A stretch of DNA of 64,000 nt from Flavobacteriales bacterium (GTDB lineage: Bacteria > Bacteroidota > Bacteroidia > Flavobacteriales_F > PHOS-HE28): positions 62,001 to 126,000 of the forward strand of contig JAHDVX010000002.1 of the NCBI GenBank assembly GCA_023382455.1, given 5' to 3'. The position numbers were made by a program, and so were the translations under genes. The notes beneath the pieces were generated by a model. The model did no database searches. It worked only from the letters and a program-made list of their open reading frames with translations, and was not told where the DNA came from. Shown in pieces: positions 21,204 to 27,824 of this stretch (positions are counted from its first letter, which is position 1; each line of letters starts with the position of its first letter).

Positions 21204-23582
21204 ATGACCAAGAGGAACATCCGCAAAGTCGCCGTCCTCGGAAGCGGCGTCATGGGCAGCCGCATCGCGTGCCACTTCGCCAACATCGGCGCCGAGGTGC
21301 TGCTGCTGGACATCCCGCCCAAGGAGGGCACCGACCGCAACGCCGTGGCCAACGAGCACCTGAAGGCCGCGCTCAAGAGCAACCCCTCGCCCATCTACGA
21401 CAAACGCTTCGCGAAGCGTATCACCACGGGCAACTTCGACGACGACCTGCCGAAGATCAAGGACTGCGATTGGGTGATCGAGGTGGTTGTGGAGCGGCTC
21501 GACATCAAGCAGCAACTGCTGGGTCGCGTGGACCAGGTGCGCAAGCCCGGAACGCTCATCACCACGAACACCAGCGGCATTCCCATCCACGCCATCGCGG
21601 AAGGCCGCAGCGATGACTTCAAGAAGCACTTCTGCGGCACGCACTTCTTCAACCCGCCGCGCTACCTGCCGTTGCTGGAGATCATCCCAGGCCCGGACAC
21701 CGACCCGGCGGTGATCGCCTTCCTGGAGGAATACGGCCAACGGATCCTCGGCAAGGTCACCGTGCGGGCCAAGGACACGCCCGCCTTCGTGGCCAACCGC
21801 ATCGGCGTGTTCGGCATCATGGACGTCTTCCACCTGATCACCGACATGGGCCTTACCGTGGAGGAAGTGGACCGCCTCACCGGGCCGGTGATCGGCCACC
21901 CCAAGAGCGCCACCTTCCGCACGGCCGACGTGGTGGGCCTGGACACGCTGGTGAAAGTGGCCGAAGGCGTGAAGGATAACTGCCCCAAGGATGAACGCAA
22001 CGCGCTCTTCGCCATTCCGCCGTATCTGCAGAAGATGGTGGAGGGGAACATGCTGGGCAGCAAGACCGGCAAGGGCTTCTACTTCAAGGACCGCAGCAAG
22101 AAGGGCGAGATCCTGCAACTGGACCTGAAGACGCTGGAATACGTGCCGCAGGTGAAACCCAAGTTCGACACGCTGGCCGCCGCCAAGAAGGTGAACGACC
22201 TGCCCGGCCGGCTGAAGCTGGTGTACAACGGCAGCGACAAGGCCGGCGAATTCTACCGCCGCAGCTTCAACAGCCTTTTCGCCTACGTGAGCCACCGCGT
22301 GCCGGAGATCAGCGACGAGCTGTACCGCATCGACGACGGCATGCGTGCCGGCTTCGGCTGGGAGCTGGGGCCGTTCGAGAGCTGGGATGCGATCGGCGTG
22401 AAGGAGGTGCTGGAAACAATAAAAGGCGCTTCGGCTCCGCTCAGCGCAACGGAGAAGGTGGCAGCGTGGGTCGAAGAGATGGTGGCCGCTGGTCACACCA
22501 GCTTTTACAAGACCGAAGGCGGCAGGCGCCTGTACTACGATCCCGCCACCAAGGGCTACAAGCCAGTGCCACGCGCCGAGGGCCTGATCGTCCTGGCCGA
22601 CCTGCCGGAAACGAGCATCGTGTGGAAGAACAAGGACCTCACCGTGCGCGACCTCGGCGACGGCATCCTCTGCGCCAGCTGGAGCACCAAGATGAACACC
22701 TTCGGCAGCGGCGTGATCCAGGGCCTCAACAAGGCCATCGACATCGCGGAGCAGGGCTATAAGGGCCTGGTGATCTACAACGACGGGCCGCTCTTCAGCG
22801 CCGGCGCCGACGTGGGCATGATCTTCATGATGGCGGTGGAACAGGAATACGACGACCTCAACATGGCCGTGCGCACCTTCCAGCACACCATGATGCGCAT
22901 GCGCTACAGCAGCATCCCCGTGGTGGCCGCGCCGCACCAGCTCTGCCTCGGCGGCGGCACCGAACTCTGCCTGCACGCCGACAAGGTGGTGGCGCACGCC
23001 GAGACCTACATGGGCTTGGTGGAATTCGGCGTGGGCGTGATCCCCGGCGGCGGCGGCACCAAGGAATTCACCCTGCGCCTCAGCGACGAACTGCGCGAGG
23101 GCGACATCCGCACCAACACCTTCCGCCACCGCCTGCTCACCATCGCCCAGGCCCAAGTGAGCACCAGCGGCCACGAAGCCTTCGCACTCGGCTACCTCCG
23201 CCCCGGCATCGACGAGGTGATCGTCAGCCGCCAGCACCAACTGGCCTACGCCAAGCAATGCGCCCTCGCGCTCTGGAACAAGGGCTACACGCAGCCCGCG
23301 CCCCGCAAGGACATCACCGTGCTGGGCGTGGAAAGCCTCGGCCTCACCTACTCCGGCGCGGACAGCATGACGAGCGGCCACTACATCAGCGAGCACGACC
23401 AGTTGATCAGCCAAAAGCTCGGCCACGTGATGTGCGGCGGCGACCTGAGCGAACACACCGAGGTGAGCGAGCAATACCTGCTGGACCTTGAACGGAAGGC
23501 GTTCGTGGAGCTGTGCCAGCAGCGGAAGACGCTGGAGCGGTTGCAGAGCATCATTACATCAGGCAAGGTGCTCCGGAATTGA
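21204..23582 (+). CDS. fadN: 3-hydroxyacyl-CoA dehydrogenase / enoyl-CoA hydratase fusion (FadN-like)
   Basis: The 792-residue protein carries out two beta-oxidation steps. The N-terminal NAD-binding domain opens with VAVLGSGVMGSRIACHFANIG, followed by the HADH C-terminal domains (VANRIGVFGIMDVFHLI). The C-terminal third is a crotonase domain with the oxyanion-hole segments FSAGADVGMIF and LCLGGGTELCLHAD. This order, dehydrogenase first, is that of Bacillus FadN and not of E. coli FadB. It lies 89 bp after marR. The thiolase expected next is displaced by the restriction-modification island. Confidence 0.92.
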   Translation: MTKRNIRKVAVLGSGVMGSRIACHFANIGAEVLLLDIPPKEGTDRNAVANEHLKAALKSNPSPIYDKRFAKRITTGNFDDDLPKIKDCDWVIEVVVERLDIKQQLLGRVDQVRKPGTLITTNTSGIPIHAIAEGRSDDFKKHFCGTHFFNPPRYLPLLEIIPGPDTDPAVIAFLEEYGQRILGKVTVRAKDTPAFVANRIGVFGIMDVFHLITDMGLTVEEVDRLTGPVIGHPKSATFRTADVVGLDTLVKVAEGVKDNCPKDERNALFAIPPYLQKMVEGNMLGSKTGKGFYFKDRSKKGEILQLDLKTLEYVPQVKPKFDTLAAAKKVNDLPGRLKLVYNGSDKAGEFYRRSFNSLFAYVSHRVPEISDELYRIDDGMRAGFGWELGPFESWDAIGVKEVLETIKGASAPLSATEKVAAWVEEMVAAGHTSFYKTEGGRRLYYDPATKGYKPVPRAEGLIVLADLPETSIVWKNKDLTVRDLGDGILCASWSTKMNTFGSGVIQGLNKAIDIAEQGYKGLVIYNDGPLFSAGADVGMIFMMAVEQEYDDLNMAVRTFQHTMMRMRYSSIPVVAAPHQLCLGGGTELCLHADKVVAHAETYMGLVEFGVGVIPGGGGTKEFTLRLSDELREGDIRTNTFRHRLLTIAQAQVSTSGHEAFALGYLRPGIDEVIVSRQHQLAYAKQCALALWNKGYTQPAPRKDITVLGVESLGLTYSGADSMTSGHYISEHDQLISQKLGHVMCGGDLSEHTEVSEQYLLDLERKAFVELCQQRKTLERLQSIITSGKVLRN

Positions 23583-23608
23583 TGAACACGGTGAAGCATA
23601 GTGGTGCG

Positions 23609-23733
23609 TTGGGCGTGCCCCGGCTCAAATGCAGCCGGGTCGCGCTTGGAGTTCAGCCCGGGCAAGGACCCGGGCCTGCAAGTCCTCGCGCGGATTACCG
23701 CGTTGTGGGCTTTCCGCTTCAATCGCTCACGCG
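23609..23733. repeat. Left arm of imperfect inverted repeat flanking the R-M island
   Basis: Between the FadN stop and the island lies a non-coding segment that matches, in inverted order, the segment at 26473-26564. Shared blocks are the first 27 bp (GGGCGTGCC...GCTCAAATGCAGC), AGTCCTCGC, and GGGCTTTCCGCTTCAATCGC with CTCACGCG. The order of blocks is conserved although the spacing differs. It resembles short dispersed repeats found in Bacteroidota intergenic DNA. Confidence 0.6.
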
Positions 23734-23769
23734 AAAGGCAGCATTACCTTTCAACCACATCCACAAAAC

Positions 23770-24453
23770 ATGGCAACTGTGAACACCTTCATCCCTAGAA
23801 ATGGCACCTTCGAGAAATTCGAACTTGAGCCAATGTCATTCAATGATACTGTCACTCGATTAGGATACCATCCTAATCAAGTCCGATCTCACCACAACAT
23901 CAATGTCGAGTGCATCTATTGGGTTGGCTTCAAAATCTTCACAAACGAGATAGTTGCCATTGCGACGGGCGCTGACACGTTGGACCCAACACTCCTATCT
24001 CGATTCATCTCGAACTACGACGCGAGGTATGAGAGATACGAAATCGAAGGGATACTTGATGACGGAGTTACGAATGGGTCATTGAGCGCAGACTACCTGT
24101 CGAGCGTACTTGGCATACCTCCTGTCGACCCCAATGGGTCTATTGTTGCGCCCACACTCGGATACGAGTTGGTCTTTCTTGATGGCAAGCTTGCGGGTTA
24201 CCAGCCAAGTGATGGCCTGAGCATGTGGGCGAAGTCGATGAAGGAGAGCAACCCTAAGCTATTTGCGAGCTATCTCATAGCTGGCCGGAAGCGATGGAAT
24301 AACGATGAAGACAGAGTACGAATCGAAATCAACGCACAAGCAGATGCCTTTGCCAACATTCCTCAAGGTCTGCTCAACCCCCTGATTGAGCAATACCGTC
24401 AATCAGATGGTACAATTGACTTTGTCCAGTTGATGAATGAGCATTACAGCTAA
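23770..24453 (+). CDS. Unknown 227-residue protein, first gene of the R-M island
   Basis: The start at 23770 (MATVNTFIPRNGTF) follows an A-rich leader. The protein is soluble, without signal peptide or membrane segment. It has an N-terminal beta-rich part (VECIYWVGFKIF, EIVAIATGAD) and a helical C-terminal half (SMWAKSMKESNPKLF...YLIAGRKRW). Codon use is visibly more AT-rich than its neighbours and differs from the following methyltransferase, suggesting separate recent acquisition. It lies 21 bp before the methyltransferase on the same strand. No family was recognised; a role in the R-M system is only positional inference. Confidence 0.7.
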   Translation: MATVNTFIPRNGTFEKFELEPMSFNDTVTRLGYHPNQVRSHHNINVECIYWVGFKIFTNEIVAIATGADTLDPTLLSRFISNYDARYERYEIEGILDDGVTNGSLSADYLSSVLGIPPVDPNGSIVAPTLGYELVFLDGKLAGYQPSDGLSMWAKSMKESNPKLFASYLIAGRKRWNNDEDRVRIEINAQADAFANIPQGLLNPLIEQYRQSDGTIDFVQLMNEHYS

Positions 24454-24474
24454 TCTCCAGAATCGGGAAGCCCC

Positions 24475-25335
24475 ATGCCTACGACCCACGAACACGACGG
24501 CCACGCCATCATCCACGGCGACGCGATCGCAGCGCTACAACAGCTCGTGCCGGACAATTCCGTGGACCTGATCTTCGCCGACCCGCCCTACAACATCGGC
24601 AAGAACTTCAACGGCCGCATGGACCGCTGGCCCAGCGACGAAGCGTACATGGCGTGGTGCCGACAATGGATCGACCTCTGCCTCGCGAAGCTGAAGGACA
24701 ACGGCAGCTTCTACCTGATGACCTCCACGCAGAACATGCCGCACTTCGACCTGTACGTGCGGCAGAAGGCGCACATCCTCTCGCGCATCGTGTGGTCGTA
24801 CGACAGTTCAGGGGTGCAGGCCAAGCGCTACTACGGTTCGCTCTACGAGCCGATCCTGTTCGGCGTGAAGGACAAGGACCACTACACTTTCAACGCCGAC
24901 GCGATCATGGTGGAGGCCCGCACCGGCGCCAAGCGCAAGCTAATCGACTACCGCAAGCCCGTGCCCACGCCGTACAACACACAGAAGGTACCGGGCAATG
25001 TCTGGAACTTCCCGCGTGTGCGCTACCGCATGGAGGAGTACGAAGAGCACCCCACGCAGAAGCCCACCGCGCTGCTGGAACGCATCGTGCTGGCAAGCTC
25101 CAACCCCGGCGACATCGTGCTGGACCCGTTCTCCGGTACGTTCACCACGTCGTTCGTGGCTAAATCGCTGGGGCGGCGGTCCATCGGCATCGAGATCGAC
25201 GAGGAGTACATGAGGATCGGGCTACGGCGGCTGGGCATCCGCGACGAGTACAACGGCGAGAAGCTGCGCCGGAAGCCCAAGACCTACCAACAGCCCAAGG
25301 AGGAGCCACAGCATCTGGTCCTATTCGAGCCCTGA
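24475..25335 (+). CDS. DNA adenine N6-methyltransferase, YhdJ-like (predicted ATGCAT specificity)
   Basis: The 286-residue enzyme has catalytic motif IV first (DPPY, residues 36-39) and the AdoMet-binding motif I late (DPFSGTF, 217-223), the beta-class order. The target-recognition part (SRIVWSYDSSGVQAK, KVPGNVWNFPRVRYRM, HPTQKP) closely follows that of E. coli YhdJ, which modifies ATGCAT. It lies 2 bp before the putative endonuclease gene, so it is probably the protective half of a type II system. The specificity is inferred from similarity I recall, not from an alignment. Confidence 0.9.
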   Translation: MPTTHEHDGHAIIHGDAIAALQQLVPDNSVDLIFADPPYNIGKNFNGRMDRWPSDEAYMAWCRQWIDLCLAKLKDNGSFYLMTSTQNMPHFDLYVRQKAHILSRIVWSYDSSGVQAKRYYGSLYEPILFGVKDKDHYTFNADAIMVEARTGAKRKLIDYRKPVPTPYNTQKVPGNVWNFPRVRYRMEEYEEHPTQKPTALLERIVLASSNPGDIVLDPFSGTFTTSFVAKSLGRRSIGIEIDEEYMRIGLRRLGIRDEYNGEKLRRKPKTYQQPKEEPQHLVLFEP

Positions 25336-25337
25336 CC

Positions 25338-26450
25338 ATGGACCACGCCTTCACCCCGGAGATCAGGGCGGTCCTCGCCAAGCACTTCAAGGCCCGCGCC
25401 GATGAGGTGTTTGAGCGCAGCCCGCTGCTCCAGTACATTAATATCAAGACCCGTTCGGCCACGCGCGGCTCGAAGTCGCGCAGCAGCTACGCGAACCTCT
25501 ACGCCATCTATGTGCTGGTGGAGGACTATGTGCAGCGCGGCTTCCACAAGAAGGGCGGCTACGCCAAGGACGCGGGCGCGCGGTTCAGCACGCTCTTCAA
25601 GCGGCAGCGCGAGCTTCCGTTCGGCGGCAAGCTCCAGAACCACGCGCTGAACCACCGCATGAACGAGGAGTTCAAGAAGTTCTTCCCGCAGGTGGAGGCC
25701 ACGCCGATCCTGCGCGTGGTGGAGACCAAGCGCTACTGGATCAACGAACAACTGCTGAAGGTCGGCAAGGGCAGGAACGAATTGCATATCGGTCCCACCG
25801 TGCTGGAGATCATCGACGCCTACACCACGGTGAAGAAGCGGTCGTTCGAGGAGTTCATCGCCACCTGCGAACGGCTGAACAGGATCGCCGGGAAAGGCTC
25901 CGGCGAGATCGAGGCGTTCATCATGGGCCTGCTGGCGCCAACCGTGGATGCCCGGTTGTTCGAGATCGTGAGCTACGCCATCCTGAAGCACTTCTACCAC
26001 GACCAGAAGGTGTGGTTTGGTTTCCAGCGGAACAAGGTGAAGGCGGACCGGCTGAAGCTGTTCAAGACCGGCCGCACCAACGCCAACGACGGCGGCATCG
26101 ACTTCGTGATGCAGCCACTGGGCCGGTTCTTCCAAGTGACCGAGACCTTGGACGTGAAGAAGTACTTCCTGGACATCGACAAGATCGAGCGCTACCCGAT
26201 CTCGTTCGTGATCAAGTCCGAAGCTTCCATCGGCGACCTACAAGCCCAGCTACGACACGGTGCCGAAAAGCAATACGGCGTGAAGGCCGTGGTGGACAAG
26301 TACATGAGGTGCATCGAGGAGGTCATCAACATCGACGTGCTCCGTACACGTTTCCGCAAAGCCATGAAGGACGGTCACCTGAAAGGCATCATCGGGGAAA
26401 TTGTGCTTCAGAGCAAGGTGGAGTTCAACTATGAGGATGAGGAACAATAG
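25338..26450 (+). CDS. Putative type II restriction endonuclease partner
   Basis: The 370-residue protein has no membrane segment. Its N-terminal 200 residues are basic and helical. A PD-(D/E)XK-like core is suggested by a helix with Glu209 (LFEIVSYAILKHFY), then Asp255 in GGIDFV and a strand ending QVTE (266-269). The usual catalytic Lys position is Thr268, so the active site is either a variant or elsewhere. Its position 2 bp after an ATGCAT-type methyltransferase gives the main support. If correct, it should cut at or near ATGCAT. Confidence 0.7.
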   Translation: MDHAFTPEIRAVLAKHFKARADEVFERSPLLQYINIKTRSATRGSKSRSSYANLYAIYVLVEDYVQRGFHKKGGYAKDAGARFSTLFKRQRELPFGGKLQNHALNHRMNEEFKKFFPQVEATPILRVVETKRYWINEQLLKVGKGRNELHIGPTVLEIIDAYTTVKKRSFEEFIATCERLNRIAGKGSGEIEAFIMGLLAPTVDARLFEIVSYAILKHFYHDQKVWFGFQRNKVKADRLKLFKTGRTNANDGGIDFVMQPLGRFFQVTETLDVKKYFLDIDKIERYPISFVIKSEASIGDLQAQLRHGAEKQYGVKAVVDKYMRCIEEVINIDVLRTRFRKAMKDGHLKGIIGEIVLQSKVEFNYEDEEQ

Positions 26451-26472
26451 ACCAAAACTTGGACCCGCACTC

Positions 26473-26564
26473 CGCGTGAGGGATAGCAGCGAAAAGCCGG
26501 CAGCGAAGCGAGGACTATACGCGGATAGCCCGACGGTGCTGCATTTGAGCGCCGGCACGCCCAA
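26473..26564. repeat. Right arm of imperfect inverted repeat flanking the R-M island
   Basis: This non-coding segment after the endonuclease gene is the inverted, diverged copy of 23609-23733. It shows the same blocks in the same order when read on the minus strand, ending in ATTGGGCG-type sequence at the thiolase side. The two arms bracket all three island genes. Confidence 0.6.
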
Positions 26565-26648
26565 TCCACACGAACAAGCAACCACAAGTCCTGCATCGGA
26601 CATACGACAAGCATTCCAACGCCTTCGCCGGGCTACGGCGCACAAAGC

Positions 26649-27824
26649 ATGAACGCATACATCATCTCCGGTTTCCGCTCCGCTGTCGGCAAGGCGCCGC
26701 GCGGCAAATTCCGTTTCACCCGGCCGGACGACCTGGCCACCCACGTGGTGAAGCACCTGATGGCCTCCGTGCCCAACCTGGCGCCCGAACAGGTGGACGA
26801 CCTGATCGTGGGCAATGCCACGCCCGAGGCCGAGCAGGGCCTGAACATCGGCCGCATGATCAGCCTGATGGGCCTGGACACCGACAAGGTGCCGGGCATG
26901 ACGGTGAACCGCTATTGCAGCAGCGGCAGCGAGACCATCGCCATCGCCTCGGCCAAGATCCACAGCGGCATGGCCGATGTGATCATCGCCGGCGGCGTGG
27001 AGTGCATGAGCCCGATCCCCTTCGGCGGCTGGCGCATCGTGCCCAACGCCAAGGTGGCCCGCGAGCACCCCACGTGGTACTGGGGCATGGGCCTCACCGC
27101 CGAGGCCGTGGCGCGCGAGTACAAGGTGAGCCGCGAGGACCAGGACACCTTCGCGCTGAAGAGCCAGGAGAAGGCGCTGGCCGCCATTGCCGCCGGGCGC
27201 TTCAAAGAGGAGATCGTGCCCTTTGAGGTGGAGCACACCTTCCTGGACGGGAACCAGAAGCGGCAGGTGGAGAAGTACACCGTGGACACCGACGAGGGTC
27301 CGCGCGCCAGCACCTTGGAAGGCCTGGCGAAACTGAAGCCCGTGTTCGACGCGAAGGGTACGGTAACGGCCGGCAACAGCAGCCAGACCAGCGATGGCGC
27401 GGCCTTCGTGCTGGTGGTGAGCGAGCGGATGCTGAAGCAGTTGAACGTGCAGCCCATCGCGCGGCTGATGGCCTACCACGTGGCGGGCGTGCCCCCGCGC
27501 ATCATGGGCATCGGGCCTACGGCGGCGGTGCCCAAGGTGCTGGAGCGCGCGGGCCTGAAGCTGCAGGACATTGAACTGATCGAGCTGAACGAGGCCTTCG
27601 CCAGCCAGAGCGTGGCGGTGATCCGCGAGCTGGGCCTCAACCCCGACATCGTGAACGTGAACGGTGGCGCCATCGCCATGGGCCACCCGCTGGGCTGCAC
27701 GGGTACCAAGCTCACCGTGCAACTGCTGAACGAGATGCGGCGCCGCAAACAGAAATATGGCGTAGTGACGATGTGCGTGGGGAACGGGCAGGGTGCGGCG
27801 AGTGTATTTGAGTTGTTGAATTGA
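26649..27824 (+). CDS. fadA: Acetyl-CoA acyltransferase (thiolase) of beta-oxidation
   Basis: The 391-residue enzyme cleaves 3-ketoacyl-CoA to acetyl-CoA and a shortened acyl-CoA. The nucleophilic Cys90 lies in VNRYCSSG. The second catalytic pair is in [12 protein letters not shown], and NEAFASQS is present. Length is normal. It is the next step after the FadN-like enzyme, from which it is separated by the R-M island. No operator of the marR type is seen directly upstream, so it may depend on read-through or an unrecognised promoter. Confidence 0.94.

Follow-up and report, generated by a model that had tools for sequence, protein, structure and literature searches.

A probable defence helper protein of a candidate Bacteroidota family, encoded beside a YhdJ-type restriction-modification pair as a mere neighbour

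Does a gene that stands directly ahead of a restriction-modification (R-M) pair work with that pair? The window analysed here, a 64-kb stretch of contig JAHDVX010000002.1 from a Flavobacteriales bacterium, raises this question through an open reading frame, called X below, that precedes a YhdJ-type methyltransferase and a type II endonuclease (Table 1). A sequence-only reading had proposed that X could be a third component, with a control, specificity or accessory defence role, or else a passenger in its own right. Based on the searches and locus comparisons described here, X probably serves as a helper protein in defence and in this genome merely adjoins the R-M genes.

Table 1. Features in and around the X locus, in window coordinates.
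Feature	Coordinates	Strand	Remarks
3-hydroxyacyl-CoA dehydrogenase / enoyl-CoA hydratase (fadJ-like)	21204-23582	+	left flank
Dispersed hairpin-like repeat, left arm	23604-23646		upstream of X; 79% complementary to 26527-26569
X	23770-24453	+	227-aa protein, pI 4.75; putative undescribed defence-neighbourhood family; no family match
YhdJ-type adenine-specific DNA methyltransferase	24475-25335	+	PRK11524 equivalog model, E 9.5e-141; judged no functional partner of X
Type II restriction endonuclease	25338-26450	+	PADLOC PDLC03455 REase_II, E 1.3e-148, nearly whole length; judged no functional partner of X
Dispersed hairpin-like repeat, right arm, inverted	26527-26569		downstream of endonuclease
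Thiolase (fadA-like)	26649-27824	+	right flank

The frame of X opens with ATG and runs over 227 codons to its stop, filling exactly 23770-24453 of the + strand; this agrees with the position given earlier, 21 bp from the methyltransferase start (24475) on the same strand. The first methionine, in the motif MA[TS]VNTF, is common to X and two relatives from the same genus (84% and 59% identity). Compared with its closest relative, X gave a pS of 0.561 and a pN of 0.085 (ratio about 0.09 once corrected), a strong silent-site bias of substitutions which indicates that X is under purifying selection. Because of the shared start methionine and this silent-site bias, X was considered a genuine gene rather than a chance frame. 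The relatives give no support to a longer version of the frame (274 aa) that would open with the ATG at 23629. The deviant codon use reported earlier was confirmed: X has a GC content of 0.48 and a GC3 of 0.54, compared to GC3 values of 0.90 for the methyltransferase, 0.88 for the endonuclease and 0.91 for fadJ and fadA. The protein has 29 acidic (D+E) vs 18 basic (K+R) residues, and its low pI prompted us to consider a DNA-mimic anti-restriction protein; this candidate was dropped, since one relative has a pI of 8.28 and acidity is therefore no trait of the family.

Searches of Pfam-A, NCBIfam and PADLOC-DB with X returned zero matches, PHROGs returned one meaningless row (best E 0.34) and the best E against PDB sequences was 0.92, such that the earlier statement that X matches no family holds for all of these collections. 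No match was obtained with X or its relatives by tblastn against plasmids or phages, or by pattern scans of viral contigs, and the idea of a phage or plasmid gene was set aside on these empty searches. Fairly confident predicted structures of X (pLDDT 82.4) and of the relative in genome G1202 (pLDDT 88.8) both showed mixed alpha/beta parts and a helical segment. Foldseek found no PDB entry at E ≤ 0.001 for either model (best 0.38 and 0.20) and no viral structure at that threshold for the window's X model (best 0.11). The best VIA-align Z scores of the two models were 3.5 and 4.0; the top row of the better model, a Bacteroides T6SS immunity protein (Z 4.0, rmsd 2.3, 50 residues), may reflect a common arrangement only. 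These empty fold searches, made with whole-protein models, do not amount to a predicted new fold. The family alignment contained few invariant polar residues and no evident catalytic set. Overall, the profile and structure-based searches that the sequence-only reading had called for uncovered relatives in Bacteroidota, but no curated family or trustworthy fold.

Profile searches of Bacteroidota genomes recovered, beyond the window, two fragments and seven loci with most or all of the X domain, at identities from 84% down to about 24%. X was present in 3 of 45 genomes of the window's genus, the window included. Wider genome draws, which overlap such that their counts are not additive, gave 5/395 genomes in a class draw at E ≤ 0.01 (G354 among them, and one of the five spurious), 4/298 in family f63 (G542, G533, a fragment in G610, and G354), 4/396 in an order draw (with G1202 as a new locus), 2/176 in family f35 (new locus G1365), 3/227 in a second class draw (a new fragment in G072) and 3/395 in a phylum draw (the window, G354 and one rejected row). 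Two rows were judged spurious, namely a 56-residue match in G152 (E 0.002) with no X-like frame among those listed and a match in G921 (E 4e-4) with two internal stops, while G610 and G072 were retained as fragments only. Re-scanning all examined loci with a family profile recovered the same X loci and no others. X and the G1202 protein aligned over 227 positions with 33% identity (E 2e-37), and the G542 and G533 copies were 37% identical to each other. Family members measured 227–295 aa, plus one fused form; a C-terminal extension of about 50 residues in the longer relatives is missing from the window's branch, and the G533 copy is shortened at its C-terminus. Shortened or fragmentary copies (L018:6896-7441, L019:5748-6008 and L031:1832-2185) suggest gene decay in several lineages. 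X belongs to what appears to be a small, undescribed Bacteroidota protein family.

The occurrence of the R-M enzymes was compared with that of X in both directions. A tblastn search of 8.6–17 kb stretches around the 9 other X loci detected neither the window's methyltransferase nor its endonuclease at any of them; the recurrent siting of X homologues beside YhdJ-type methyltransferases that a third R-M component should display was thus not seen. Conversely, the X profile had no match in four plasmid R-M loci, each with both enzymes, that were taken from the 11 records matching the endonuclease (plasmids of Leptospira noguchii, Acetobacter ascendens, Lactiplantibacillus plantarum and E. coli). 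A short HTH gene lay just before the endonuclease in two of these four loci and just after it in one. For an HTH control-protein domain in X itself, neither the Pfam and NCBIfam searches nor the fold searches gave a usable match either way. Since each of the two, X and the R-M pair, occurs without the other, X is not regarded as an R-M component; their co-transcription is possible, and a functional link between them is unlikely. YhdJ-type enzymes methylate ATGCAT. This motif, counted as a possible sign that the site is avoided, occurred four times in the window (14111, 59632, 60799 and 60803) vs 8.1 expected under a maximal-order Markov model, which is suggestive at most, and 20 times vs 26.6 expected by the same estimate in sibling stretches; an alternative figure of 3 vs 19.6 stems from a weaker null and non-overlapping counts.

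The site itself accounts for how such genes could come together. All 12 sibling genomes examined contained fadJ, and the stretch to fadA was readable in ten of them, the other two being at contig ends. Five of the ten sibling gaps measured about 0.7–0.8 kb and five 3.3–4.9 kb; the gap was 3066 bp in the window (23583-26648) and 3366 bp in G002. Counting these two, 7 of 12 readable junctions hold 3 kb or more. From the long sibling gaps, ten cargo proteins were scanned. The cargo comprised a fusion of a XamI-type endonuclease with an Eco57I-type methylase (G033), DUF4062 and Schlafen AlbA_2 proteins (G013), AlbA_2, HNH endonuclease and AbiEi proteins (G006) and AbiEi with AbiEii (G040); the single protein scanned from G024 had no match, though its neighbours looked AbiE-like by eye. 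The X profile matched in none of the ten sibling gaps. In the window's genus, the fadJ-fadA gap is thus a hotspot where cargo of defence type collects, which explains how X and an R-M pair could come together in it without any partnership. Duplicated 5' ends of fadA (55–77 bp) were seen twice in the gap of G040 (L047) and once in that of G006 (L046), and were absent from the window and G002; they are a possible insertion footprint. A dispersed repeat, roughly 100 bp long, lies on either side of the cargo, occurs also at L004, L005, L044, L045 and L047, and was located upstream of X in all three loci of the genus; by eye, its stems vary in sequence yet remain complementary.

Elsewhere, the neighbours of X relatives were largely of defence type. 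Of the seven other loci that retain most of the domain, three (G542, G533 and G1202) had a TIR gene adjoining X on the same strand. In G542, genes for a 146-aa TIR protein, a 206-aa membrane-looking protein and a TIR_2-EAD11 protein were followed 3 bp on by X, and in G533 X lay 9 bp downstream of TIR_2-EAD11; this pair is kept in two genera, with TIRs that are 59% identical. The TIR gene of G1202, 26 bp downstream of X, matched PADLOC PDC-S66 (E 1.4e-106) and ThsB models (best E 5.1e-45), in a gene cluster that included a GmrSD_N protein (PADLOC NsnA, E 1e-44). G1202-like TIRs without X were found in 5.8-kb stretches of Niallia and Priestia plasmids, and X is therefore not obligatory for such TIRs. 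Among the plasmid matches listed, H15–H26 were enterobacterial proteins, many annotated as DUF1883, with 51% identity to the C-terminal TIR of G1202.

In G1365, X lay between the gene for an uncharacterised protein and a CAP12-TIR-like gene 300 bp upstream of X, the latter a weak CAP12/PCTIR-TIR match just under the cut-off (E 3.6e-5), with a DEAD/MZB helicase nearby. In G354, the X domain forms the C-terminal part of a fusion protein of 564 aa; the N-terminal half of this protein is hydrophobic and looks membrane-spanning by eye. Within the window's genus, X headed a gene run in 3/3 loci with a different next gene each time: the R-M pair in the window; in G002, at the same fadJ-fadA site, four other low-GC genes, of which the first (272 aa) had an ExoX-like_C match; and in G003, at another site and 2 bp on, a 155-aa protein with an Mrr_cat match. 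The partner assignments in G002, G003 and G1365 are sub-threshold Pfam matches. A frame downstream of X in G003 (L005:5923-6399), which includes a masked stretch, had, by eye, the look of a REP-associated (IS200-like) transposase, and the G072 fragment lay near a cytosine methyltransferase-type gene, also by eye. The GC3 gap between X and its neighbour was at most 0.09 at the six other loci with a separate neighbour, compared to 0.36 in the window; this agreement is informative at four of the six, the background genes of G1202 and G1365 being similar in composition. Defence-type neighbourhoods of X relatives are thus well supported; joint function is unproven by neighbourhood alone, because defence genes cluster anyway.

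With a probability of about 0.5, we read X as the constant, non-enzymatic part (a sensor, an adaptor or a regulatory switch) of defence modules with an exchangeable effector. This reading is based on the TIR adjacency, the G354 fusion, the varied next genes, the GC3 match elsewhere, the dissociation from the R-M pair and the lack of a catalytic set. In such modules the exchangeable effectors would be TIR, membrane-domain or nuclease-type proteins, and we infer that X would hold or gate the effector next to it until a cue from an invader arrives. The partner that matched X in composition was probably lost or replaced in the window, which would have left X ahead of an unrelated, self-sufficient YhdJ-type R-M pair within the fadJ-fadA cargo hotspot. 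A bolder version, in which X is the sensing switch of an effector-swapping immune system whose slot has been taken by the type II R-M pair, now placed under infection sensing, appears improbable.

The strongest competitor, possible though clearly the less favoured, is a passenger role, in which X would be self-contained, serve defence or anti-defence, and move between defence islands with no partner among its neighbours. Such a protein would fit neighbours that vary at nearly every X locus, the existence of both the R-M pair and PDC-S66-type TIRs without X, and the location in a cargo hotspot. However, X stays very close to TIR-EAD11 in two genera and is fused to a membrane-like domain in G354, and both features are partner-like. 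An immunity or antitoxin-like protein that restrains a toxic neighbour (a TIR NADase or a nuclease) until infection is unlikely: although the gene pairs are adjacent and short-spaced and the top VIA row was a T6SS immunity protein, that structural match is weak (Z 4.0), X is fused in cis in G354, and the window's genus keeps X under strong purifying selection without a TIR neighbour.

Still less credit goes to a role of X within the adjoining R-M system, be it in control, in specificity or as an accessory. The 21-bp spacing on the same strand, with perhaps a shared transcript, argues for it, whereas the two-way dissociation (0/9 and 0/4), the GC3 contrast and the presence of X at the same fadJ-fadA site of G002 without the R-M pair argue against it; moreover, a short HTH gene adjoins the endonuclease in some of the plasmid loci, none of which carries X. 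Hardly any weight remains for the idea that X is a housekeeping protein with no tie to defence. No evidence for it was found beyond conservation in 3 of 45 genus genomes, and it is countered by the patchy spread (those 3/45, and 4/298 in family f63), the foreign composition and the defence-type neighbours. Hence, from the sequence-only reading, the accessory-defence proposal gained from the TIR and effector-type neighbours and the separate-passenger proposal from the lack of shared composition or conserved R-M linkage, while the proposal of a third R-M component fell.

The X family has no curated entry in the libraries searched, yet recurs beside TIR and effector-type genes. If X does gate effectors, TIR immunity in Bacteroidota would gain a new regulatory element, and searches for further defence modules could start from X. 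The case also cautions against equating operon adjacency with partnership in cargo hotspots.

Among known systems, the plasmid YhdJ-type type II R-M pairs share their methyltransferase and endonuclease families with the window, and all four do without X. TIR effector modules (Thoeris ThsB, TIR-EAD11 and PDC-S66) resemble the X loci in that their TIR proteins directly adjoin X relatives; they differ in that X itself is no TIR and that PDC-S66-type TIRs also exist without X. ThsA of Thoeris was not among the four other scanned neighbours in G1202, though the TIR there matches ThsB models. In EAD-coupled conflict systems a matching EAD copy would be expected on core component and effector alike; EAD11 is present on the TIRs of G542 and G533 and absent from X. 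The EACC1/EACC2 'effector-associated constant components' belong to two-gene conflict systems and, as far as those accounts go, are described around caspase-domain proteins (PMC7159879, PMC8195603). Compared with them, X has neither a Pfam match nor an EAD, and its partners are TIR, nuclease-like and membrane-like; no caspase domain was found among the X-locus neighbours scanned, a set drawn from loci other than G610 and G354. The neighbours or fusion partners at eight X loci were the R-M pair, an ExoX-C-like, an Mrr-like and a membrane-like domain, TIR-EAD11 (twice), a PDC-S66 TIR and a CAP12-TIR-like protein, three of these being sub-threshold. As those accounts portray EACC1/EACC2, the likeness lies in the arrangement, with a constant component encoded beside a variable effector.
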